A stretch of DNA of 64,000 nucleotides from Selaginella tamariscina (taxonomy: Eukaryota; Streptophyta; Lycopodiopsida; Selaginellales; Selaginellaceae): NCBI GenBank assembly GCA_003024785.1, contig PUQB01000008.1, positions 312,868 through 376,867 of the forward strand. The letters run 5' to 3'. Each line of letters begins with the position of its first letter. Positions within the stretch are counted from its first letter, which is position 1. The notes under the pieces are model-generated. The model was given only the letters and a program-made list of their open reading frames with translations. It had not been told where the DNA came from and did no database searches. Positions 4,800 through 35,215 of this stretch are shown piece by piece. Position numbers and translations under genes: made by a program.

Positions 4800-5990
4800 C
4801 AGTGATACGTGTAGTTTACCTGCCTTATGGATTACAGTAAACTCGAACTCCTGCAAGAGGAGTATCCACCGCGTCGGCCTCCCGGTGAGCTGTGGTTTGT
4901 TCACAGGTACAGTAGGGCGTGGTGATCTACGATCAGTATGAAATGGTTACCCAGAAGGTAGTGGTGAAACTTGGATACCCCGTAAATGACTGCCATGCAT
5001 TCTTTGTCGGTCGTCGAGTAGTTGCGTTCGGCGCATCATGAGTCGACTTCCGTATGCTATGGGTTGAAACATGCTCTCGTTGTCCTTCTGAGACAGACCG
5101 CACCCGCCGCTATGCTTGAGCCATCCGTCTATAAATGGAACTGGCAGTTCCAATCCGGTGGAATGAGGATGGGTGCTTCCACCAGTTGGCGCTTTATGTT
5201 TTCAAAGGCTGCCTGCCAGTGGGTGGTCCATTCGTACGAGCTCCCTTGGTGAGTAATTCAGTCATTGGTTGGGCCCTATCAACATACTTCCGGATAAACT
5301 TACAATAGAACCTGCTTTCCCCAGGAATCTTTGGAGTTCCGTGATGTTCTGTGGAGGAGGCATTTCGGCCAGTGCTCGTACTGAACCTGGGTCCACCGTG
5401 ATGCCTTCCTTGAAATGATGTGCCCTAGCAACTTCCCCGCGGTCATGCCAAATACGCACTTTGAGGGGTTAAGAGATATCCCATATTCCTGGCGCACTGG
5501 AATACCCATTCCAGGTGCGTCACATGGTCTTCTGTTGGTCCGTAAGTTGTGAAGTCGTCCAGGAATGCCCAGCAAAATCTGCGAGGTTGTCCGAGAACAC
5601 CGTTGGACCAACCTTTGAAACATGGCTGGAGCGTTGCAGAGTCCAAACGGCATAACTCTGAAGGCGTAAGCTCCCTAATCCGTGATGAAGGCAGTTTTGG
5701 CTTGGTCGTCCACTGCGATCGTCACCTGATTGTATCCACTGAAGCCGTCCATGAACGAGTACATCTCTGGCATGCCATATCTTCTAGAATGGCCTCTGTG
5801 AATGGAATAGGGAACGGGTCCTTCTCCGTGGCGGCATTCAGCCTTCGGTAATCTACGCAGATTTCAGTCGGCCGTCTTTCTTTGGCACGATCACAATTGG
5901 TGACAACCATTTGGATTCTCGATGGGGTAGACAAAGTCCGCTTCGAGCCACTTGTTGATCTCTTGTTTGGCTTTTCGGGTGTAGTTTGGG
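4800..5990 (-). pseudogene. Element A reverse transcriptase and RNase H, broken
   Basis: On the minus strand 5,934-5,722 includes the reverse-transcriptase segment CVDYRRLNAATEKDPFPIPF. Frames at 5,653-5,300 hold the 'MPFGLCNAPA' palm segment, and 5,459-5,262 holds the connection segment before RNase H. RNase H-like sequence (QPIAYGSRLM) follows at 5,153-4,947. The segments lie in different frames, so the polymerase is dead. Order and spacing are normal for Ty3/gypsy pol. Confidence 0.8.
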
Positions 5991-6331: not shown

Positions 6332-6880
6332 CTACACGGTTTCTAACCAAGTCATTAGGTACGTAGCGACCGACTCGTACTTCCTGTCGAGGATCACCTC
6401 TCCTATGACGAATAGCTCTAGCAAACACGCTAGGATGGCCGCTTCCTCCTCATCATCCAACCCCCCCCAGTCCGGGAGATGGTATTCCTGGGGTTGGGAC
6501 TCCGAGGGTGGCGCCGGGACTTGTCTTGCAGTGATGGATACAACCCCCTCCTTGACAAGAAATCGAATATGCTGCTTCTCCCAATCATGTTGTACCCTTG
6601 CCCCAAAGGCACGGCCGACCCAGGAGTAAGTCGAACCCTCCTTTTGCATGCATGTCGAGGACGACCACGTTTATCAGGAACTTGATGTCTAGATCCTAAT
6701 GCTTACCTTCCTCATGATGCCCTTAGGGACCACCTTGGTTTGGTTCGCCATGCGTATGAGGAAGGGTGAGGGCTCCGGGGTGGCATTCCCAGTTGTTGAT
6801 GGAGTTCTATGGACATGATGTTCACGCCTTGATCCCCCATCTATGATTACGTTGTGGACTGTACGGCTTGCCATCTGAAC
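6332..6880 (-). pseudogene. Element A protease and protease-RT linker
   Basis: A retroviral-type aspartic protease core with the motif VIIDGGS lies at about 6,830-6,870, with an unusual Gly after the catalytic Asp. The frame at 6,649-6,332 continues with a segment resembling the protease C-terminus (QHDWEKQHIRF) and a Glu/Asp-rich linker. Element B is inserted just upstream in coding order, at 6,891, separating this protease from its gag at 14,130 and beyond. Confidence 0.65.
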
Positions 6881-21747: not shown

Positions 21748-22045
21748 ACAAACTACGCATGTCGGTGGATAAAAGTTATGACGAGAATTGAGATTGAATT
21801 AAAAGGAGTGATACAATAGTGAAGAAAAGTGTGTTCATCGCTTTGAGCTTAGGCTTTATACTCAAGCCCATGCAAGCATGCCACTAAATGTGTGGTTATG
21901 GATCCCATGCAAGTATGCCACTAAATGTGTGGTTGTGGATCTCGCTAGGTGAAGGTGATGCCAGGTGAAGGCGAAACTTCACCAGGCATAGGACATGTAA
22001 ACTTGCCAGGTGTAGGTCATGTGAAAATTTGTCCAAATCCTAACA
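21748..22045 (-). repeat. Element E 3' LTR
   Basis: Matches 44,893-45,211: both carry AACAAACTACGC, then GCAAGCATGCCACTAAATGTG twice in near-tandem, and end CCTAA[C/T]A. The first few bases present in the other copy (TGGA) are replaced here by the terminus of element C. A G-rich tract (AGAGGGGGA on the coding strand) lies just inside at 22,046-22,056 and is a good polypurine tract. Confidence 0.85.
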
Positions 22046-22505
22046 TCATCCCCCTCTTCTATGTCGAGCATCAACGAGGCAAAGGACCAAGCTTGTGTGG
22101 TAATGTCAATGGAAAGCAGCAATAAGGTCAAAAGCATTCTCAAGGTGATTGGCAGGCTCCCAAGTTCGATCACTTGGAGAGAATCCTTTCCAACTTCAAT
22201 CAACAAGGTACTAGAGTTGGCCATACATGTGACAAGAATCCAAAACATTAGCAACTTCAAGTTCAAGTTTGTCTGCAATGATGTCAGATGGTGGAGGTGG
22301 TGGAATACAATCGGGTATGTCACTCTCGTAGTAAGGTTCGAGAAGAGACACATGGAAAATGGGATGTAGCCAAACTTGAGCAAGGAGTTAAAGATGGTAG
22401 GAAATGTCTGAGAGGTAGTAGACAACCACGAAGGGTCCTAGACATTGGTAATCCAACTTATCATTGGGTCAGGAGGAAGGCCAATGTTGATAAAGGAGCC
22501 AAACA
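22046..22505 (-). pseudogene. Element E integrase C-terminus and chromodomain
   Basis: Reading the minus strand from the F junction, the frame gives an integrase tail (VWLLYQHWPSS), then a chromodomain pattern with the aromatic YLVDWKGF and a following TWEPANHLENA helix, near 22,260-22,110. Chromodomains steer chromovirus integration to marked chromatin. In-frame stops are present, so it is not functional. Confidence 0.75.
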
Positions 22506-22509
22506 TGCA

Positions 22510-22531
22510 AGTTGTAACTAAAATGGGCATG
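22510..22531 (+). repeat. Element F left terminal inverted repeat
   Basis: Reads A then GTTGTAACTAAAATGGGCATG (split here as GTTGTAACTAAA plus ATGGGCATG). It is complementary to 34,395-34,416 except at the outermost base and one internal A/G. TGCA lies immediately outside. Confidence 0.85.
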
Positions 22532-23003
22532 GCTATAGTCCCATTTCCTAATAATTAGCAATTTTAGCTATTTAATTAGCATTTTCTAATATTAAAGGAA
22601 TATTCTTTAAAATATATGTTTGAAAATAGAATATTCTTTAGAATATTCTATTTTGTATTCTACCCTTTAATAAATTATAGCATTCATTGAACAAAAATTA
22701 ATAACATTATAAAAGTAGAAGGTATTAAATTATATAATATACCTAATATAACAATTAAGGAAGAGCATAAGAGGTACATTATATAAATATTGATGTTGTT
22801 ATTAAATATTAATATTTAAATATAACATTATTAATTAAAAATTTAGTAGTAATAATATATATATATATATCCTATAATAATATAGTCAATCTTCCATATC
22901 ATTTTTTAAATTTATATAGTTAAGTATACAATTTGGTACTATTATTAAAGAGTTTATAATAATTATGAATATTAAATATATATTTTATAATTTTGTAATT
23001 GCT
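22532..23003. other. AT-rich subterminal region of element F
   Basis: No coding sequence. It contains several GAATATTC or AATATTCT motifs (about 22,600-22,665) and a TA run near 22,855-22,870. Similar GAATATTC motifs occur near the right end (34,215-34,255), as expected for transposase-binding subterminal repeats. Confidence 0.5.
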
Positions 23004-26000
23004 TTAAGCTTCAGAAAACATACATTCCCTTGCAGTTTTGTTAATCGTGACTTTATCAACGTTTCTTGACATCCACCCATATCGAATGGATTTAACATTT
23101 ATAAAACATGCTGGGTCTTTTTGATTGGGAGACCATGTTTTCTCTAAGCATTCATTATATCTTTCGCTCTCCTTCTCGTGTCGCCTTTTTTGTGGTTTGA
23201 ACCATGCAACCTTAACAATACTATTTTTTGTGATTACTTCAGGTGTGTCGATAATTTGACCCATCCAAATAGGCTGATTATATGACGCATCTGGAGTAAT
23301 GAGAACCATCATTAGTTTTTGAAGATCCTGGCAACAATCAAAGTATGCTTTAGGTTTTTGGTTCCTTTGTCCAACAAAGTGTGGGGTTTGCACTTCCACA
23401 TCACTACTGGCTTCTATGTCGTCTATGCTCAGTGATGTCATTTCAATCTCCTCTCGCCACCTTGTTTTTTAGGCCAGAAAGGGTGTTGCAATTCTGTACT
23501 TGTGACAGTAGGCCCTTCCAACTCTCGAACAATAGTCTCCCAATAGTCGACCACATGCTTATATAGTTCTGAGTAACCAGTTGTCTTATCAGAATTCTTT
23601 GGCATCGATTTTTGAACCCATGCCACATATTTTTTGATGCCATCAATAATAACCTCTTGTTCCTTGAGCTGGGCACTCAATGGAATAAGGTCTGATTGTC
23701 CTTCTGGGAGAAGTGGCTTTCCATCCTCTCCACTTTTGAAGAGCATTAAGCCCTCTTTCGGTAACCACTCCTGCTCTGATGGCCGTAACTTGTACTGCAT
23801 AATAGGTATACCATCTCGTATGGAGAAAAAGAATTGTAGCGGCACAAGGTGACCAACTAAAGAATCACTCCCTTCTTTTATATACTTCTTGAGAAATTTT
23901 TTGAAGTCTGGCACCTCAGTCACAAGCAAAGCACAACTTTTTTTGGAGATGCAATTTTCAAAAAGATTCATCATATGCGGTAAAGTAAGTGCACTTGTCC
24001 TTTTTGTAGAGTTGGAGACCTTGCTGAAGAACGCATCAATATCTTCATGAGTGTGACCAACCATAAGGAAACTGAGCGTGATTGTTTCAAACACACCTTT
24101 GGCAACAAGCATTGACAAGTATGCTAGCACATATCTAGAAAATAAAAGTAAGTATGAGCTTGAGAAACCCTTAAGTAAAATGATTTACCTATTTTTGTTC
24201 TCGCCTGCACAATTATCCATCTATAAAAGCAAATGACGAGGAAGCTTATTTGATGTTGAGGACACATGTACACTATTTGAGCTAGATCCCTCCACTGAAC
24301 CAGAACTCTCAACATGGCCATCTGTTTTCTGTGCAGGCTGTTGACAATGCCTCTCATATTCCAAGTAGCCTCAAGTGCAGACGTGTTCATGAGAGCATTA
24401 TGTAAAGGTTGAAGGTGTTGTTTCTTCACTTTGAGATCACTGATAGGACTTGTCTATGAGTGGGCTTCAAGGTTTCTGAAACACATGGCTAACGACCCAA
24501 TAGTGAAATTGGAGTCGCTAGACCAATGTGGAAGTGAAAAGTGTCCATATGACTCACAACCGTGTCCATGTGTTAGCACACCTATCAATGAAATCGGAAG
24601 TTTCATGACATTTCCAAGGCACTTTGGTGTGTGCAAAGAGCTTTGGAATGCTGGTCTTTGAATGATCCATCTTGTCATGGATCAAGCACAGGTACTCTGA
24701 TGGGCGTGACACAGAAAGCATGCGGTGTGCATAGTACTGAGACCGGCAAGTTTGTTGTACAATCATGTGGGCCTCCATCTTCTTTTGAATGGCAGTGATC
24801 TCCACCAAGGTTTTTGCACAAGTCTCTGCAGCCTTCAATGATGTAACAAGTGTCACACTTGGAAAAGCTAGAGTGTTTTGCAATCTCCACATCCTTAAAA
24901 TGAGTATTCCATATGTTGTTGAAGGTACCAGTGCAGATTGCTTGGAGCCCCATCAAACTGAGGCACTTGTTCACATGTTCACACAACTTCAATTGAGTGT
25001 AGATTGAAGGCAAAACCTTGAGATTTCCCTGACCCCTGCATTTGTGGTTCGGCATTTGTGAGGCATCCTGTCTGCATTTGCTTCCACAAAAGCCTTGAGT
25101 ATCTCTATGGCTGCCATGATGTGAGAGCGGGTTTTGACCAAGCGAGTGTTCCCATGAACTGAGGTTCGCGCTCCATCTAGCCACTCATCCCTCCGACGGT
25201 AGAACGTGGTCTTTGGGATCCCGTATATACTGTACCAAGCTTTTAAGCAGATGGCCACCTTATTAAATACCATGGATGTACTCTGATAACTTGTGTCCGA
25301 GGCCATTCCATCAATACACCCAGTTAGTGCAGCATATACAAACTCATGCCTTTGCTTTTGGGTGAGCATACGAAAGACATGTCTACATTGGGTAATTTCA
25401 TTCCGGTCTGCCATCTGACAACACTTCTTCTTGCAACAGTCAATCGTGGAAATGCTCGTAACACTTTCGGAAGATGTAGGATCCATCTTTACCCTCTTGC
25501 TGAAACTTGCAGGGGAAGATCTACAACCCATGAATCGCCTTTTTCTTACAATAGGACCAATGCAAGGAACCTCTTCAAATATGAGTTGTTCTTCCGGGTT
25601 GTTATTATTGAAATCCAACCCAGAATATGTTGAACCATCTTGCCGTCTTAATTCAGATGTTCGCCACCTCACGAGGGATCCAGGATACAATGTGCCATTA
25701 GGTGAAACCTCTGTCACAACTACACCCACGAAGTCGGACCCTAGTTTCTCTCTGACACTGCTTCCATTGGATTTATAGCTGTGATGATGCCTCTTCCGAC
25801 TTCAATCTCACGAAGAAAGAGAATCACCTCATCCATCACAGCAGGCAAGCCATCATCTGGTAAACTCGTGCTACTATTTATTTGTGACTCTGCATATTCT
25901 GTGTCAGCCTTGACTTCATCCAAATTCCACAATACAGGAGAACCCTCCTCAAATTCCATTCCCAGAACCTCAACATGCTTGTAAATGGTGTTCACCCATA

Positions 26001-26135
26001 CGTACACACAAGATCCTTAGGCAATATTTGTGACATGATGCATTATTATCTCGAACTTCCACAGTTCCAGTGCCAATTATCTCGTTATTCCGAAGAAGAC
26101 ATACTTTATCTCCAGTATTAAATATATTGTCCTGC
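23004..26135 (-). pseudogene. Element F transposase-like gene (DUF7869 type)
   Basis: Successive minus-strand frames give one protein. A small leading domain (26,135-26,010, GDKVCLLRNNEIIGTGTVEV) comes first. A Cys-rich N-terminal region follows (25,729-24,989), then FSKCDTCY, then IHDKMDHSKTSIP with two Asp, GVLTHGHG, MDNCAGENKNR, and GHTHEDIDAFFSK (24,130-23,438). A basic C-terminal part ends at 23,004. Spaced acidic motifs of this kind suggest an RNase H-fold nuclease. A clean GT-AG intron lies at 24,188-24,135 inside the ENKN motif. At least four frame changes and a TAG at the residue before MDNC (probably from CAG) show it is dead. The family name is from memory of motif patterns. Confidence 0.7.
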
Positions 26136-26399
26136 ACATAAATAATTGTATTATTTATGATATCTGTTTATGCAATATTTCTAAGAAATCTGAATTATGG
26201 TTACTTAATAATATGCATATGCAATAATACATAATTATGTTTAGAGATAACAATCCCGCCGCCTCTTCCTCCTCGGGGGGAGTCCGGCGGGATTAATCCT
26301 GCCGACTCTCTCCGAAGGGGTTGAGTTGGCGGCGGGATTAATCCCGCCGACCGTTCCTCGTCGGAGGGATTCGGGCGGCATTAATCGGCGGCGGCGGCT

Positions 26400-26414
26400 G
26401 TGCACACAGGTGAA

Positions 26415-26466
<52 letters not shown>

Positions 26467-26732
26467 ATATGTATAGGAGTGTGCGTATAATTTTATTTAT
26501 TGATCTATTTCTCGCACACACACGCACACTTCTGTGTATATATAGTGTGTGTGGGTGTGTGTTTATTTATCTGTATGATTTTATTTGTTTCGCTCACACA
26601 CGCATACACACGATATACATATACACATATATATATATACCTATATACATATATACATACATATATTATGTGTACCAGTATCTATAAATTTTTTTTATTG
26701 ATCTATCTCTCCCACACACACGCACACTGCTT

Positions 26733-26766
<34 letters not shown>

Positions 26767-27525
26767 CAATGCATATTAACAAATAGTATACAACACTAGT
26801 TTATATATATGCTTATATATTCATATGGGTTATATATCTATATACACACATATATATGTGTGTGTGTTTATCTGTATAATTTTATTTATTTATTAGTTTT
26901 ATCTCTCGCACACACACACACACTCCTGTGTATATATATGTGTGTGTGTGTTTGTTTATCTGTATGTTTTATTTGTTTTGCTCACACACACATACACACA
27001 ATATACATATACACATATATATACCTATATACATATATACATACATATTATGTGTACCAGTATCTATATAATTTTTTTTATTGATCTATCTCTCCCACAC
27101 ACACGCACACTGCTTTACATATATATATATATATATAATATATATATTATATATATATAATTAATGCATATTAACAAATAGTATACAACACTAGTTTATA
27201 TATATGCTTATATATTCACAGACTCTCTCTCTTTCTCTATGGGTTATATATCTATATACACACATATATATGTGTGTGTTTATTTGTATAATTTTATTTA
27301 TTTATTAGTTTTATCTTTCGCACACACACGCACACTCCTGTGTATATATATGTGTGTGTGTGTATTTGTTTATCTGTATGATTTTATTTGTTTCGCTCAC
27401 ACGCATACACACGATATACATATACAAACATATATATACCTATGTACACACATATATTATGTGTACCAGTACTGTATAATTATTTTATTTATCTATCTCT
27501 TGCACACACACGTACACTCCTATAC

Positions 27526-27568
<43 letters not shown>

Positions 27569-27640
27569 TATATATATGTGTGTGTTTTTCTCTGTATAAT
27601 TTTTTTATTTATTAATTTTATCTCTTCACACAACACGCTA
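26400..27640. repeat. Microsatellite block in three tandem units of about 400 bp
   Basis: Long TG runs (for example 26,415-26,456), CA runs and TA runs dominate. The larger order is threefold: markers such as TGTGTACCAGTA recur near 26,670, 27,051 and 27,461, and TTTATATATATGCTTATATA recurs near 26,800 and 27,196. Plus-strand frames through it encode only Tyr/Ile/Thr/His repeats and are not genes. It interrupts the palindrome array. Confidence 0.85.
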
Positions 27641-28261
27641 AGCCCCCTCGGCGGCGGGATTTAATCCCGCCGCTATAGGTTTATGGCCTTGGCGGCGGAT
27701 TAATCCCGCCGCCGAGGCCCTTCACGTAGGCTATGGGCGGCGGGATTAATCCCACCGCTCTAGGACAAACCGAAGAGCGGCGGGATTAATCCCGCCGCCC
27801 ATGGCCTGCGTGAGGGGCCTCAGCGGCGGGATTAATCCCGCCGCCCACCCATGCCTGCGCGGAATGCGGCTATTTCGTCGGCAATGGCCTGTGTGAAGGC
27901 CCTAATGGGCGAGATTAATCCCGGCGAATTCCGCGCAGGGCATTTACAGGGGATGGGCGGCGGGATTAATCCCGCCGCTCATGAGGCTAACCAAAGAGGC
28001 CTGCATGACATGTCCTACGCGTAAAGGCGGTGGGATTAATCCCGCCGCCCAGGGAATTCACGCAGGACATGAACGGCGGGATTAATCCCGCCCACGCTCA
28101 TGCCCTTCGCGGAGGGCGGCGGGATTAATCCCACCGCTTAGGCACTTCCGCAGGATATAAGTGGCGGGATTAATCCCGCCCCCACCCATCCCTGTTCAAA
28201 ATGCCCCGCCGAACCTTCATTGCCCGGTGGCGGGATTAATCCCGCCACCCTTCTTTTTTTC

Positions 28262-28336
28262 CTCCATTGGTATGTTGAATCAATCCCGACTAACTATGTC
28301 TGAGACGGAAAAGGTTTACAAAATACCAATGGAGGG
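28262..28336. repeat. Inverted-repeat unit, copy 1
   Basis: CCATTGGTATGTTG on the left pairs with AAATACCAATGG on the right, giving a hairpin of about 75 bp with CTGAGACGGAAAAGGTTTAC inside. A second copy lies at 28,951-29,023, in the same orientation and also between palindrome sites. Confidence 0.6.
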
Positions 28337-28950
28337 AACTGAGAAGGGTGGTGGGATTATTTCACCATCCCTTACATAGTGGGCGGGATTAATCCCGCCG
28401 CCTTTTCGGAGCCCCTGAAGGGGTGTGAGAAATAAATCCTGCCCAATTCTCTCTGAGAACGAGAAAGGTTGCGTCCAGCGGGATTAATCCTGCCGCCTAC
28501 GGCCGAAGTGAAGGGCCTGGGCGGCGGGATTAATCCTGCCGCGTACGCATGCCCTGCGCGGAATTGGGCGGGATTTATCCCGCCGCCATTGGCCTGCTTG
28601 AAGGGCCTAGGCGGCGGGATTAATCCCGCAAGATTTCGCACAGGGCATTGGCGTTCGGCGGGATTAATCCCGCCGATTAAGGCCCGAGTGAAGGGCCTGG
28701 GGGGGGATTAATCCCGTCGAACGCCAATGCCCTACGCGGTATCGGGCGGGATTTATCCCGCCGCCATTGGCCTGCCTGAAGTGCCTAGGCGGCGGGATTA
28801 ATCCCGCCCGATTCCGCGCAGGGAATTGGCGTCCGGCAGGATTAATCCCGCCGCATAGGGACCGAGTGAAGGCCCTGGGCGGCGGGATTAATCCTGCCGA
28901 GTCTTCAATGCATGTTGGAGGAATGAATCCCGCCACCCTTCGCTTTTTTC

Positions 28951-29023
28951 TCCATTGGTGAGTCGGACCAATCCTAAACGTTTCTGTCTGAGACGTAAAA
29001 GGTTTACAACATACCAATGGAGA
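28951..29023. repeat. Inverted-repeat unit, copy 2
   Basis: Related to 28,262-28,336: CCATTGGTGAGTC on the left, CTGAGACGTAAAAGGTTTAC inside, and ACATACCAATGG on the right. The left arm has diverged more than the right arm. Confidence 0.55.
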
Positions 29024-29379
29024 GAATTGGGAAGGGTGGGGAAATTCATTTAACCATCCCTTACATGGTGGGCGAGATTAATCCCGCCTCCTTTCTGGAG
29101 TCACTGAAGGGGTGTGAGAAATAAATCCTGCCCAGTTCTCTCTGAGACCGAGAAGAGTGGCAAGATTAATTCCGCACTCCCGTTCAAGGCCTCCAGAAAG
29201 GTGGCGAGATTAATCCCGCCCACTCTTTCAGGAGGCATTGAAGGGGTGGCGAGATTAATCCCGCCGCACCTTCCATGTGAATATATATGTGTATTAGTAT
29301 ATATAAGTTGCATATCTCATTTTATTTACTTTTATCATTTTATCATAATATTTCGAGTAAAAACTAGGAATCTATGTAA

Positions 29380-29466
29380 AACTGTCCAGAGCTCACATTT
29401 GTGGTGGTTCTAAAACGAAATGTTATCTTTCTTTTGCACTAGCACAAATGTGAGCTTCGGACAGTT
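29380..29466. repeat. Hairpin with 24-bp arms upstream of the ParB-like gene
   Basis: The left arm (29,380-29,403, starting AACTGTCCAGAGCTCACATT) and the right arm (29,443-29,466, ending TGAGCTTCGGACAGTT) are complementary except for about two bases, with a loop of about 40 nt. It lies about 140 bp before the first candidate ATG of the cargo gene. Confidence 0.7.
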
Positions 29467-29607
29467 AATTACGTCTACTTCTCTCTGTGTATTATTTTGT
29501 ATATTCGGGTTTATCAAGTGTGTGTGCGTTTTTATATGATTTGTATTCATAGTGTATTATTTTGCAGAAGGACGATTTGATCAAACAAGGAGATCGAGTC
29601 ATTAGTA

Positions 29608-32600
29608 TGGAGTCGTCGTCAAATTCTGGTAAGAATTAAAATAAAATCTGTTATACTCGGATACTTGAACTAATCATTTTTGTATTCAGATGTGGAATTG
29701 AGGTGACATTAAAGACAAGAGCAGGAGAAGAGATGGGCAGGGGGATTCTGGAATCAACTTGGCCATATTTTAAGATAAATGGGAAGCGCATTGGAGCAAC
29801 CATGGTTGCTGTCAAATTAACCTCTGTCACATCTCATGGACAAGCAAAACAATGGAAAGTAGATTCGCTAGTCAAGCACCCGAAAGCAGGCTGCGAACCC
29901 AGATTGGACGATTCTCGACACATATGCCTTGTTCCATCCAATGTCACGTTCTCGGATCCAGAGGTCGTCAGTTACAACATTAATTTCGGGTGGTTTTGTC
30001 GACTTGTGGATAATGACGTTCACGTGTTCACTAATGATGTTGACCTTGGAGTTCTTCTTCAACTCAACGAAAGCCCATCTATGGAGGGGATCCATCTGGA
30101 TGTCTACTTCGAAAATCTTCAGACTCATCGAGTAGGTGTATTGTCAGGAGATATTGCTTCACAATACAGAAAATCAGCAAGTGGAGCAATCTTCCCTCTT
30201 CACATTGAAGAAGAACACAGCGACATCATAAGGAGATTGAGAGGGTGGCTCGGTCTCAGGTTCTCTACAGATCACGTTCAATTTGCTTAGGAAGCTTTGG
30301 GAGCTGGAAGAGTGTGCCGAGAACACTAGAACAGCTGCAGTCGGGGATCACACATGTTGATTCGGATCGCAAAAGAAAATCATCAATCGTTTTGTCAGCT
30401 GCACCTGTGGCATCTCATGCTGCAATAAGTCACAAGGAAATGATGTTGGATGAAAAGATTTATCCTTGTAGGGTTAAATATTGCAGCGTCAACCCAAACT
30501 TCAATTACAGGCCACTCAACCAGGAACGTGTAGCTGAGCTCATGGAGAAGATGAAGGACGACAATTCTTATACCGTTCCACATAATGCTGTTTTGTGTCC
30601 ATACTATGAAAGAAGGAAGGGCGCTGACAAAGTCTGGATCACAACACCAGAACAACTCATGAAGATTCAGACGGAGAATAGAAAATCTATCAAGTACTAC
30701 ATCATTAGTGGCCAGCACACAATAACGGCAGCCCAACGACTTCTCGATGAACACAACAAAGGAACGATGGCAACAAAACTTTCCGAGCATACCCGTGAGA
30801 AGCTGACAAAAAGATCGGCGTTTTTAGCTAAGCCGAATCTCACAATCGAGCAGTACCATAAGTTATCGGCGGAATGGGACGCTGCCGACACCAACCACTA
30901 CAACAGCAAAATATGGGAGAAGTTTAAACACACGCGAGCCGTGTGGGAATCTCAGCGACCACAAAGAGCTACTGCAGGGAATACACAATCTGCGAAACCG
31001 GGTAAGCAAATTGTGGGCGGGATTTATCTCGCCGGTATATTAATCTGTCTTTTTTCAGAGAGTTGAAGAAATTGCAGCAGTTGATTTTGCCCAGGTGGGC
31101 GGGAAGGAAACATCCTTTCTGATGATGTTGATTTCTTGCCCCGAAGATAGGATCTTTGCCAAATGGTTGGGGATTATGGAATCCTTTTCAAAAGGAACAC
31201 TGAAGAAGAAGCAGACAAGTGAAGGGGAGCCCTCAGAAAAGTCTGCAAAGAAACCCAGTAAGACGCCGAAGGCTAAGTCTGTTCAATCTACAAAGGATGT
31301 AGACAACGATTTCAAGCTCACATGGTTGAAGCCTTTAAATGGAACAACGATGGAGGAGATGGAAGTCTTGGCTGATTTGGTGATCGATGGCAAACTACAA
31401 ATTAATAACAGCAGCCCAACCTCTCCTTTTCATCTCAAGGCAATGGAGTTGAAGACGGTCAGGCATTTCAAGGAGTGGTTGGGAATACACTGCCACAAAC
31501 TGGGTTGGACCTCGACTTCAACATATGAAGAGGTCAGCAAATATTTGCATGTGACGAACGATGATATGCTTGTCGAATGGGTGAACCAATCGGAAGATCT
31601 AGGCAAGAATCTATTGCACGCCAACGCCAAAAAGGAGAACATTGGGATGACGCCTTCTCTTATGGCAGTCCTTCAGCAGCGGAGAACCGAATTGAACCTT
31701 ATAAAGGAGGATGCTACGAATCACGACAAGCCCTACAGATGTTTGTTGTTAGATTCGGAGACTTTATGGGGTAACATCACTGCTTGTAGGAAACCGTTTC
31801 AATTGTTCGTGATGGATCGGCGGGTGTCAAAAAATCTTTCGACAGATAGGGCACTAGAGGATCTGGTGGAGAAACTTAGCCGTGCAAGCATATACATAGA
31901 AGGTATTTATTATTGAATTCATGCTTGCGCTCTTCACTGATACCTACTTTTTCAGGTATTTATTTCTTGATTCTTGCTCATGTCACCGATACTTTTGCCT
32001 TCGCCTTCGCCAAGAAGAATAGACATCGTTGGACAGGATTTTATATGAACGATGCTAATCCCAAGTGCATTGATACCGTTGTTCACTTGGTTGTTAGGAA
32101 TGCGCCAAACAATTTCAAGCTTCCAAATGACTGGCCAGGCATCTGTTTGCACTCCAACGGCCCTGAACCTCCATCCGATACACCGATAGGTATGAGTGAC
32201 GTATTCGGCAATGTACGTTATCCAAACATTACAAGTCAAGCGGCACGGAGCATCGTCAACTTGATTAGGGGTCCTCACAGTGATGCGTGGGTTTTTGACT
32301 ACTGCACTAGGGGGTCCGTCTTGAAGGAGTGTTACCTTCGGCATACATGTGTGTTTGCCGTTGAAAAGGATAAGACCATGGTTGAGGACCTGAACAAGTG
32401 GATAGATTGGGTCTCAACTGAGTACCCCAACGAATCCATAAAGGCGTATTTGAGAAAGTTCCCTCCAGATAAGTGCGATAGCTCTGAAGGTGAATCTGGT
32501 TCAATCTCGGAGTCTGAGAACGAACTTCAATCAGATATTAGACCGGAAGTTATCTCGAGGAGTACAGAACATTCGCACACTCCAGGACCCATGGAAACAT

Positions 32601-32701
32601 CAATAGAAGATGCAGAAGATCTTGAACCATCTCACAAGCGGCTTAGACCTTCTTCGCCTCACTCAGAAGGTAATAGCGAAGAAGAATTGATAATGAATTG
32701 A
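29608..32701 (+). pseudogene. Element F cargo gene: ParB-like domain plus methyltransferase-like domain
   Basis: The part at 29,700-30,290 is an unrecognised domain, mostly beta by composition. The part at about 30,360-31,000 reads RPLNQERVAELMEKMKDDN, then YYIISGQHTITAAQRLL, the layout of the ParB/sulfiredoxin-like fold. The part at 31,100-32,700 resembles a beta-class DNA amino-methyltransferase: FVMDRRV where a DPPY-type catalytic motif is expected, then FLILAHVTD. Later WVFDYCTRGSVL and CVFAVEKDK occupy the place of the SAM-binding FxGxG strand and the next strand. An intron at 31,903-31,955 splices cleanly, and another lies near 31,000-31,058. An acidic tail ends at 32,701. The frame is broken near 29,700, 30,290 and 31,058. 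ParB-methyltransferase fusions are familiar from phages; function here is inference. Confidence 0.6.
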
Positions 32702-32973
32702 TAGAGTGATGAATAGTTGTAAATGAGTGTAACATAAGGCATTTTTGTATATTTCTTTTATATTTGTACAGAAAATAAATTCTCAAGGATTAATGAAGCT
32801 TTTAGTTCAAACATGGGTCACACATTAACAAGGTAAATAATATACCTTGATAATTTTAAGGTCAGCTAATTATCATTTTGCAGATGTAATGAAATAATTG
32901 AGAACATGGATTTTCAGCATTGCCATGAGGTAAGAGAGGGGTTTGGCGACAATTTCTTGTGCCACATGTCAGA

Positions 32974-34025
32974 ATGACAGAGTTCATGCAGGAAATGGAT
33001 AATAATGCAGCTCAAAACATCGTTACCATGGGGGCCACTTCATCATCATTTTTATTGGCTTCAATTCCGAAATCAATTTCTTCAGCGCATGCAATATCTG
33101 AATCTTGTAAGGATGATGTACAATTAAATGATGAAGGGATAGGCAACGAGATAGTGGCAACGGATAAATGTGAAAGGGAGCAAACAAGTGATTTGCAAAG
33201 TATTCAAGAGGCAACGCTATCTCATGTTACTCATGGCCATATTGTGTTGTTGGATGTCAATGGTGTTCTGCTTCATCGACAAAGGCCCAGGATAGAAAAA
33301 AGAAATCAAACAAGGAGATTTCATTCCTTGTCATGGTAAATTTCGATATGATATTATTTTTCGTCCAGGGTTGGATCGTCTCTTTCAAAAGCTTAAGGAG
33401 ATGGGTGCGCTTGTGGGGATTTGGTCATGCATGCAGATTCATAACTTAACACCGCTGTTGAATTTACTTAAGAAACATTGTAGTGTTGCAGAAGAGGTGA
33501 TTCGTAAAGATTGGATTTTTGACCAGCGAATGTTATAAACCTCTCGAATTTCACAATATAAGAAAGGAAAGCAAGCCGTACTTCTTCAAGAATGAAAGAA
33601 TAATTGGGACTCATGGGGAGATCAGTCGCTTAAGGATAATGAAGAACGCACAGATGTTAGTAGTAGACGACTCTCCTCAGAAGGCTATGCTCAACCAAAA
33701 CATTGCTTGTATTCATCCAATCACTTTCGATCCATATTCTGATACCGATATCATGGATGAGCTAGTGAACTACTTGGATACGTGCCTCAGAAAGAAGAAT
33801 CTCGAAAATTTTTGTGAGCAGTATCCACCGTATCATACATTTCCTGAAGCTTTTCTTTCTCGTGATATTGAATTTTATAAAATGAAGGATAGCAACCGGG
33901 CGCTTTATAATATTATTCTTAAGGAACGTCAGTTTTTAGATGAGCCTTTATGCAGACCTTCTCTTATCACATCTTATGTATTAACAAGGATGGCAACTCC
34001 CAATTGCATTCGTGAGAGTGGTTAA
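32974..34025 (+). pseudogene. Element F cargo gene: FCP1/SCP-type HAD phosphatase, broken
   Basis: The ATG at 32,974 opens an N-terminal Ser/Glu-rich region of about 85 residues, then IVLLDVNGVLLH, the HAD motif I position with Asn for the second Asp. The frame shifts near 33,300 into a stretch with FRPGLDRLFQKLKEMGALVG and GIWSCM, then again near 33,520. The last part holds KPYFFKNER and VVDDSPQKA, the conserved DDSP motif IV of the FCP1 group. The tail runs to a stop at 34,025. These enzymes remove phosphate from serine, as on RNA polymerase II tails; a DxN motif I also occurs in plant relatives. Two frameshifts make this copy non-functional. Confidence 0.75.
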
Positions 34026-34394
34026 GTGGTGGCAACAACATCAAGATATTGACCAAAATGATTTGATTAATCCGGAGAGTGATGATTTAGACAAAATAAA
34101 GATTTCTTTGTATGATAGAAAGAAAGTATTTATAAAAAAATTAACATGTTGATAAGAAAATGATTTCATTTGTAATTATGTTTGATAGTATTTCTTCATT
34201 ATTGTAAACTATTTTTAGAATAATATGAATATTCTAAGATATTTTAGGAATATTCCTTACTAAGTAAGGTTATTGAAGGATTAATTAATTAATTAATTAA
34301 TATTTAAGGCTTAATTACATATTAATTAAATGATTAATTAATAATTAAAACTTAAGTATTAATTAATTTATTTTATATTCCCATTTTCACGTAT
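34026..34394. other. AT-rich right subterminal region of element F
   Basis: No coding sequence. It contains an ATTAATTAATTAATTAAT run (about 34,280-34,305) and GAATATTC motifs at about 34,227 and 34,247 that match those at the left end. Confidence 0.5.
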
Positions 34395-34416
34395 CATGCC
34401 CACTTTAGTTACAACG
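34395..34416 (-). repeat. Element F right terminal inverted repeat
   Basis: CATGCCCACTTTAGTTACAAC plus one base, the inverted partner of 22,510-22,531. TGCA follows at 34,417-34,420. Confidence 0.85.
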
Positions 34417-34420
34417 TGCA

Positions 34421-35215
34421 TAAACTTTACTGCATGATTGAAACATCAAGGTAGGCAAATGGTTCCAATCGGCCATCTACTAGTAAGATTCATGAGTGCG
34501 GTTTAGATGATAACGAACTTCATTATGAAGAGCATGTAGGGTGGCAACATGATCTTGAGCATGATCATTAGAGATAAGACCAATGAGGATGATGTCCGTA
34601 AATGGTTAAGAATGGAGACTGGTGGCCAGTGGAGGAGTGTGCCAAGTTGTTGTAAGCGAATTCAACCAAGGGAAGCATATCAAACCAGTCATCCTGCTGG
34701 TGCAAGAGGAAGCAACGAAAATATTGTTCAAGGTTCGCTCTATTTGACCATCAAACTATGGATAATGAGCACTGGTCAGGTGAACATCGACTCACAAGGC
34801 ACGGAGGAACTATTGCTAGAATGATGGATGAACTAAGAACCCCGATCACTGACAATGTCATAGGTAAATCGTGAAGCTTAAAGACACCACAATAAACCAG
34901 ATTAGCTGCATCAGCACTAGTCACTGAGGAAAAAAATGGGCCATTTTCTAGAATTGATTGACAATAACTAGGAGACAGTCAAAACCACATGACGATGGAA
35001 GTTCTAAAAGAAAGTCCAAAGAAATGGAACGCCATGGGCTGGATGGGACGAGAAGCAGATGGAGAAAACTAGTAGCATGATGTTGAGGAATCTTGGAACG
35101 CTGGCAAAGATCACAAGATTTGACAAAATGCTCAATGAAAAACCCCATGCCAGGCCACTAGAACATGCATTGAACTAGCTCGACAGTCTTGTGTAGGCTA
35201 AAATGGCTAGTAGAC
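34421..35215 (-). pseudogene. Element E integrase middle part
   Basis: The minus-strand frame 35,148-34,948 holds the zinc-finger end and start of the integrase core: FVKSCDLCQRSK, then PWRSISLDFL with the first catalytic Asp, then LLVIVNQF. Sequence down to 34,421 matches the later core of element D (compare 34,690-34,740 with 36,555-36,600) but is full of stops. It is bounded by element D on the right and element F on the left. Confidence 0.75.

Follow-up and report, generated by a model that had tools for sequence, protein, structure and literature searches.

A high-copy transposon family of Selaginella tamariscina with three genes and internal palindrome arrays

We analysed a window of 64 kb from the genome of Selaginella tamariscina (the window being the whole stretch of DNA under study) and found in it an inserted element of 11,907 bp, at positions 22510-34416, that belongs to a family of DNA transposons. 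In this family a transposase gene, an accessory gene, a phosphatase gene and arrays of a palindrome travel together, inserted at ATGCAT; the family is young, recently amplified and present in very high copy number. We have very little doubt that the transposon and its gene set are real. The whole explanation that we propose, with a probability of roughly 0.6, is that of a Sola1-like transposon with a fixed three-gene set, whose accessory protein would recognise the element's own arrays and perhaps act against silencing. The features of the window copy are as follows.

22506-22509, no strand: left target-site duplication TGCA (presumed target ATGCAT)
22510-22531, plus strand: left terminal inverted repeat, A-first type
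23004-26125, minus strand: transposase gene, DUF7869 (PF25273); exon 1 26125-24189, exon 2 24134 to about 23004; frameshifts and at least one stop
26286-26348, no strand: palindrome array at the 5' end of the transposase gene; two units, longer in fuller copies
26400-27640, no strand: remnant of an AT-/TG-rich spacer, mostly missing in the window copy
27693-29265, no strand: main array of the palindrome GGCGGGATTAATCCCGCC, GC-/CpG-rich; units about 44-46 bp apart over 28477-28881
29607-32701, plus strand: accessory gene; exons 29607-29629, 29690-30997, 31059-31902 and 31956-32701; 976 amino acids where open
32974-34135, plus strand: NIF/HAD-type phosphatase gene (PF03031); about 391 amino acids where open
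34395-34416, minus strand: right terminal inverted repeat, C-first type
34417-34420, no strand: right target-site duplication TGCA

Ends, insertion site and copy number

The terminal inverted repeats of the window copy match at 20 of 22 positions, and the element is flanked by TGCA at 22506-22509 and 34417-34420. An initial annotation of the same DNA had proposed a large cargo-bearing DNA transposon with 22-bp inverted termini and TGCA duplications, and its bounds, termini, transposase and cargo genes are all borne out. It had also proposed that removal of the element restores an integrase frame, which holds up less well: when the short flanks are joined, the result resembles the pol region of Ty3 elements but contains many stops, and the frame across the junction is open only between two nearby ones. 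The surroundings of the insertion (21979-22509 and 34421-34820) resemble a stop-rich Ty3-type pol region by eye, no profile having been run. The left end (21/22 bases) has no further match in the window at up to 5 mismatches.

The genome that we searched is the window's own (300.7 Mb in 1,391 contigs). The ends of the element start with A/C-GTTGTAAC, and a genome-wide count of the 21-base terminal core gives 2,926, against none for the reversed control. ATGCA plus one base precedes 2,633 of these 2,926 exact cores (90%). Because both end types show ATGCA outward, the insertion target would be the palindrome ATGCAT, of which TGCA is duplicated. ATGCA was also read directly outside 18 of the 22 distinct ends in the sampled loci described below, the exceptions being C860b, C1063, C1004 and L003. 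Termini whose first base is T (ATGCATGTTG...) occur alongside the A-first and C-first types, for example at C68:30228-30254, C68:32453-32479 and C84:8008-8034; they may represent another subfamily or imprecise junctions.

The exact 35-base left end and the exact 35-base right end each occur 1,097 times in the genome, and an exact 35-base stretch of the accessory gene (the ParB region, after a label discussed below) occurs 1,427 times. In searches with the ends and the phosphatase region, the best 40 candidates were scored out of 1,870-2,233 at first look; all 40 places lie at 95-100% for the left end, and at 99-100% identity for the right end and for the phosphatase region. Among the first 100 places listed for each end we paired 90 left and 100 right ends (190 ends; 10 of the 100 listed left ends, beyond contig C191 where the right-end list stops, were left out), which gave 43 neighbouring pairs comprising 86 of the 190 ends. 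Every one of the 43 consists of one left and one right end. The paired ends lie a median of 14,591 bp apart (range 7.1-23.0 kb), 27 of the 43 within 14.0-15.5 kb. About 1,097 copies at about 14.6 kb would make up some 16 Mb or 5% of the genome, an estimate on the upper side since some copies are shorter. The mean pairwise substitution between sampled copies is 0.0018-0.0092 per site, depending on the module, with a largest single value of 0.0231.

Two copies have unusual arrangements. In C452 (L035/L036) a left terminus lies inside the stretch, oriented like the right terminus there, and therefore copies nest or abut. In C860a (L009/L010) the transposase part is reversed relative to the rest, hence either an inversion or a second copy at the locus.

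Genes and arrays of the copies

We sampled 20 copies in a non-random way, 10 through right-end matches, 5 through phosphatase and 5 through left-end matches. Within the stretches read, exons 2 and 3 of the accessory gene are found in 20/20 copies each and its exon 4 in 19/20. The phosphatase is found in 16 of the 20 copies; for the transposase, 18 copies show exon 1 and 7 show exon 2. The best pieces of the gene modules are 96-100% identical; most of the gaps fall at stretch ends or at N, while C837c and a few other copies are partly lost. Furthermore, we placed the ParB 35-mer among the listed places up to contig C147, that is 98 of the 100 listed ParB places and 77 right ends. Of 35 end-bounded copies, 29 contain it, and in 27 of those the distance to the right end is 3.5-3.8 kb; for 56 of the 98 ParB places a listed exact right end is found at a distance of 3-4.2 kb. 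Since the genes also occur in other copies with these termini across the genome, the cargo is element-borne, as the initial annotation had supposed.

The minus-strand gene, which had been noted as transposase-like, matches the DUF7869 profile (PF25273) with an expectation value (E) of 3.3e-27 and 95.8 bits, against a curated cut-off of 26. We found 47 homologues, all of them with PF25273 and up to 47% identical, from Physcomitrium patens, Mytilus edulis and Saccostrea echinata among others; the P. patens protein A0A2K1KXP1 is 33% identical to the element transposase. These matches are at the protein level, and no element structure is known from them. In an alignment of 14 homologues the motifs DxMD, DN and GHTHEDID are invariant, and they are candidates for the catalytic acids. 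A literature search on DUF7869 found no paper.

The other two genes had been described as divergent cargo. They are indeed divergent from the transposase gene, but both lie on the plus strand and not divergently from each other. The phosphatase assignment is confirmed by the match to the NIF profile PF03031 (E 5.8e-12, 46 bits against a cut-off of 21.8), and DDSP is present at position 251 of the C811 phosphatase frame. Among NIF proteins are the phosphatases of the RNA polymerase II tail. We met no mention of a transposon-borne NIF phosphatase in the literature, though no search was aimed at one. The accessory gene had been labelled ParB/methyltransferase, a label that rests on two motifs found by eye, SGQHTITAA at residue 348 and DYCTRG at residue 843.

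At up to 3 mismatches, GGCGGGATTAATCCCGCC has 29 matches in the window, all 29 of them inside the element, and no match in any of 20 mononucleotide shuffles of the element, which confirms the palindrome array noted earlier. The 12-base palindrome core is present in all 20 sampled copies, with 9 to 40 occurrences per copy. The fuller copy C1063 has two GC-/CpG-rich palindrome blocks, each 5' of one divergent gene, with an AT-rich spacer between them. The window copy is shortened, as it is without the 2.7-2.9 kb or so of spacer that fuller copies have between the two array blocks. Telomere-like CCTAAAC runs occur in the AT-rich spacer of C1063 (element positions 5956-5981 and 6407-6444), and a degenerate unit of the array palindrome is seen in an intron of the accessory gene (31016-31033). 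A scan of the window with Rfam gave no match at the gathering thresholds.

All three genes are broken in the window copy. Across the window copy and the 20 sampled copies we counted 232 distinct frameshift insertions or deletions (indels) versus 189 substituted variants; 200 of the 232 indels occur in a single copy, while some recur in up to 8 copies. Natural decay rarely gives as many frameshift indels as substitutions. Because the indels outnumber the substituted variants, we read them mostly as assembly error, which would account for them at least as much as decay does; the recurrent ones may be partly inherited, or a recurrent error. Single-base deletions are very frequent among near-identical copies in this genome. 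The assembly is probably poorly polished, and gene calls elsewhere would break too. On the other hand, in C803 all four accessory exons are open and encode 976 amino acids, and the phosphatase frame stays open for 403 codons or more in 3 of the 20 sampled copies (16 of which cover the gene). The spliced transposase of C1004 has 648 amino acids in a frame that is not open throughout, and a complete transposase could be read in no copy.

Relation to known transposons

We read the element as a cut-and-paste (DDE-type) DNA transposon that is probably Sola1-like. Sola1 elements give a 4-bp target-site duplication. The same is seen here: TGCA flanks the window copy on either side, and 90% of the exact termini follow ATGCA. 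The layout also agrees with that of Sola1-1_Ec32, since the accessory gene lies on the strand opposite to the transposase.

Sola1-1_Ec32 of Ectocarpus is described as carrying a gene with ParB-like and DNA methyltransferase parts opposite its transposase (PMC12477816). The two elements thus share the form of a giant transposon with an accessory gene for about 1,000 amino acids on the strand opposite to the transposase. They differ in that Sola1-1_Ec32, of 21.5 kb, is a minor element (the Sola-1 row gives 1 family and 0.17%), whereas here there are about a thousand copies; the passages describing it mention neither a phosphatase nor a palindrome array, both of which the present element has (PMC12477816). 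A further difference is that the accessory protein here is without the usual catalytic motif. Sola1 is listed for Physcomitrella in the table of a review (PMC9033089). The portion of the literature on ParB, methyltransferase and transposons that we saw contained no further element of this kind. In summary, algal transposons have already been described with accessory genes of this sort, one of them a Sola1 element of the same divergent layout, so that the earlier statement that no described element has this combination does not hold for the ParB-methyltransferase gene; the phosphatase, the arrays, the ATGCAT target and the burst do look new.

Two other systems are similar in kind. VANC of Arabidopsis transposons is an element-encoded and sequence-specific anti-silencing protein whose targets are often tandem repeats (PMC5735166). 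The likeness to our element lies in the element-encoded, sequence-specific protein and in the repeat targets, with the function shown there and inferred here (PMC5735166). The VANDAL/VANC proteins differ from the accessory protein. The VANDAL transposase is also of another type than that of our element. Fungal transposons with TET/JBP genes, KDZ among them, carry cargo that has been proposed to counter methylation-based silencing; that cargo is a dioxygenase instead of a ParB-like protein, and the transposases are other ones (PMC12730594).

Three further classes were considered for the element. Helitrons have neither inverted repeats nor a target duplication, and are ruled out by the presence of both. 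A KDZ (Kyakuja-Dileera-Zisupton) transposase profile is present in Pfam. With the window pieces and two homologues we obtained no KDZ family at E ≤ 1, and the duplication is of 4 bp and not of 8 bp as in the Dileera family (PMC12730594). CACTA/EnSpm elements, which that source gives CAC...GTG ends and a 3-bp duplication (PMC12730594), are ruled out by the A/C-GTTGTAAC ends and the 4-bp duplication.

Possible roles of the accessory protein and the arrays

We propose that the DUF7869 transposase would cut inside ATGCAT with a 4-base stagger, giving the TGCA duplications. The accessory protein would recognise DNA of the element, with the palindrome arrays next to the two divergent promoters as the likeliest site. 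Once bound there, it would hold off host silencing and keep both promoters active, in the manner of VANC proteins on VANDAL elements. The phosphatase, for its part, may work on components of the transcription machinery and likewise favour expression. Such an anti-silencing role would be the most likely use of the cargo, although we put it somewhat short of even odds; the position of the arrays on the 5' side of both divergent genes speaks for it. A more specific version is rather unlikely: here a catalytically dead derivative of a ParB/methyltransferase with a DNA-binding region of transposase type would coat the promoter arrays in a parS-like self-recognition and, together with a phosphatase of the RNA polymerase tail type, would keep the element active, enabling its burst.

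A possible link between the accessory protein and the DNA of its element comes from its N-terminus. Residues 10-70 or so resemble a repeat of the N-terminus of the element transposase, with E 9e-5 in BLASTP and E of about 1e-5 in a profile comparison (each a single comparison). The hhalign scores of 20.4 and 19.5 exceed the best shuffle (16.2 and 14.6, respectively), and in each run none of 100 shuffles scored as high. We take this similarity as a lead and not as proof; if real, it would give the accessory protein a way to recognise its own element.

The same similarity can be read in another way, namely that the accessory protein simply serves transposition as a second protein, comparable to TnpA of En/Spm or to the second of the two Harbinger proteins. 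The arrays would then be its binding sites for synapsis and not for anti-silencing. The N-terminal region that it has in common with the transposase and its company with the transposase in the sampled copies fit this alternative, as does Harbinger, which needs two element proteins. However, the arrays of the window copy are not subterminal but lie well inside, about 4 kb and about 5 kb from the ends, and the 47 DUF7869 homologues are known as proteins alone, so that partners cannot be inferred there; we consider this unlikely, if the weightiest of the alternatives. Alternatively, a host factor could read the arrays as CpG-rich promoters that work in both directions, with no binding by the accessory protein. 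For this, the palindrome holds two CCCGCC half sites, which we take to resemble E2F sites, and array blocks stand 5' of both genes. There is no direct point against such promoters, but the N-terminal likeness suggests that an element protein recognises the element's DNA, and we regard them as quite unlikely.

An active ParB-guided methyltransferase that marks its own element DNA with N4-methylcytosine or N6-methyladenine (4mC/6mA) would agree with the gene position of the published ParB-methyltransferase of Sola1-1_Ec32 (PMC12477816), with the two motifs at 348 and 843, and with the sole PHROGs match of the protein (E 0.051, residues 358-417), the family matched having no known function. On the other hand, no methyltransferase profile matches. 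The usual catalytic motif of amino-methyltransferases is [DNS]PP[YFW]. It has no match in the 976 amino acids, and because this motif is missing DNA methylation by the accessory protein is doubtful; we hold an active enzyme to be improbable. The ParB/methyltransferase identity is not confirmed, there being no usable library match and no homologue, and the same goes for the suggestion that the cargo is linked to DNA marking. Finally, the phosphatase comes from a eukaryotic family (PF03031) and may ultimately derive from a host, as expected if a Pack-type element had captured host genes by accident. For the present family this is largely refuted, and extremely improbable, as these genes are found again in the sampled copies and in 29 of the 35 copies bounded by ends, and the exact accessory-gene 35-mer occurs 1,427 times in the genome.

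Several points weigh against the proposed Sola1-like transposon with recognition of the arrays by the accessory protein. The roles in binding, expression and methylation are inferred from sequence, and the likeness to Sola1 is one of description. For the accessory protein, neither Pfam nor NCBIfam gave a match at E ≤ 5, and PDB gave none. The pieced-together protein had no homologue among the 7,998 scored candidates that share most words with it, the long accessory exon of a sampled copy had none among 4,025 candidates, and a comparison with phage genomes gave nothing at E ≤ 10. A search of viral contigs for the accessory gene returned one stretch that matched a pattern, and it was not confirmed. 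The hhalign probabilities for the N-terminal match are weak (13% and 9%), and BLASTP of the accessory N-terminus against the Physcomitrium transposase gave no signal. DxDG is the classical catalytic motif of NIF phosphatases; at position 112 of the C811 frame there is DVNG instead. As to the copies, 104 of the 190 listed ends have no listed partner, and the exact ParB 35-mer lies 3-4.2 kb inward of only 57 of the 77 listed right ends; where it is missing, the cause can be sequence error or real loss. Matching TGCA on both sides was read for the window copy only, as none of the 20 sampled stretches spans both ends.

Selection on the cargo is likewise not clear. Among shared variants (those present in at least 2 copies) we counted 19 nonsynonymous versus 13 synonymous in the accessory gene and 8 versus 4 in the phosphatase, where a neutral ratio would be about 2.2-2.9; the transposase has 12 versus 13. 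Among single-copy variants the ratios are 13:7 for the accessory gene, 4:0 for the phosphatase and 75:21 for the transposase, with 6 stops among them. Given small numbers, error-prone sequencing and the lack of a tree, these counts give hints of constraint on the transposase, weaker ones for the accessory gene and none for the phosphatase.

How transposons evade silencing is not yet settled, and few elements are known to encode anti-silencing proteins of their own. Because this family is young, very high in copy number and carries in its copies both an invariable accessory protein gene and a conspicuous candidate for the target, binding and methylation are straightforward to test. If our explanation is true, the class of ParB-methyltransferase transposons would extend from algae to a land plant, with a phosphatase as a new partner, and the family would be an example of a giant transposon with a strict ATGCAT target.

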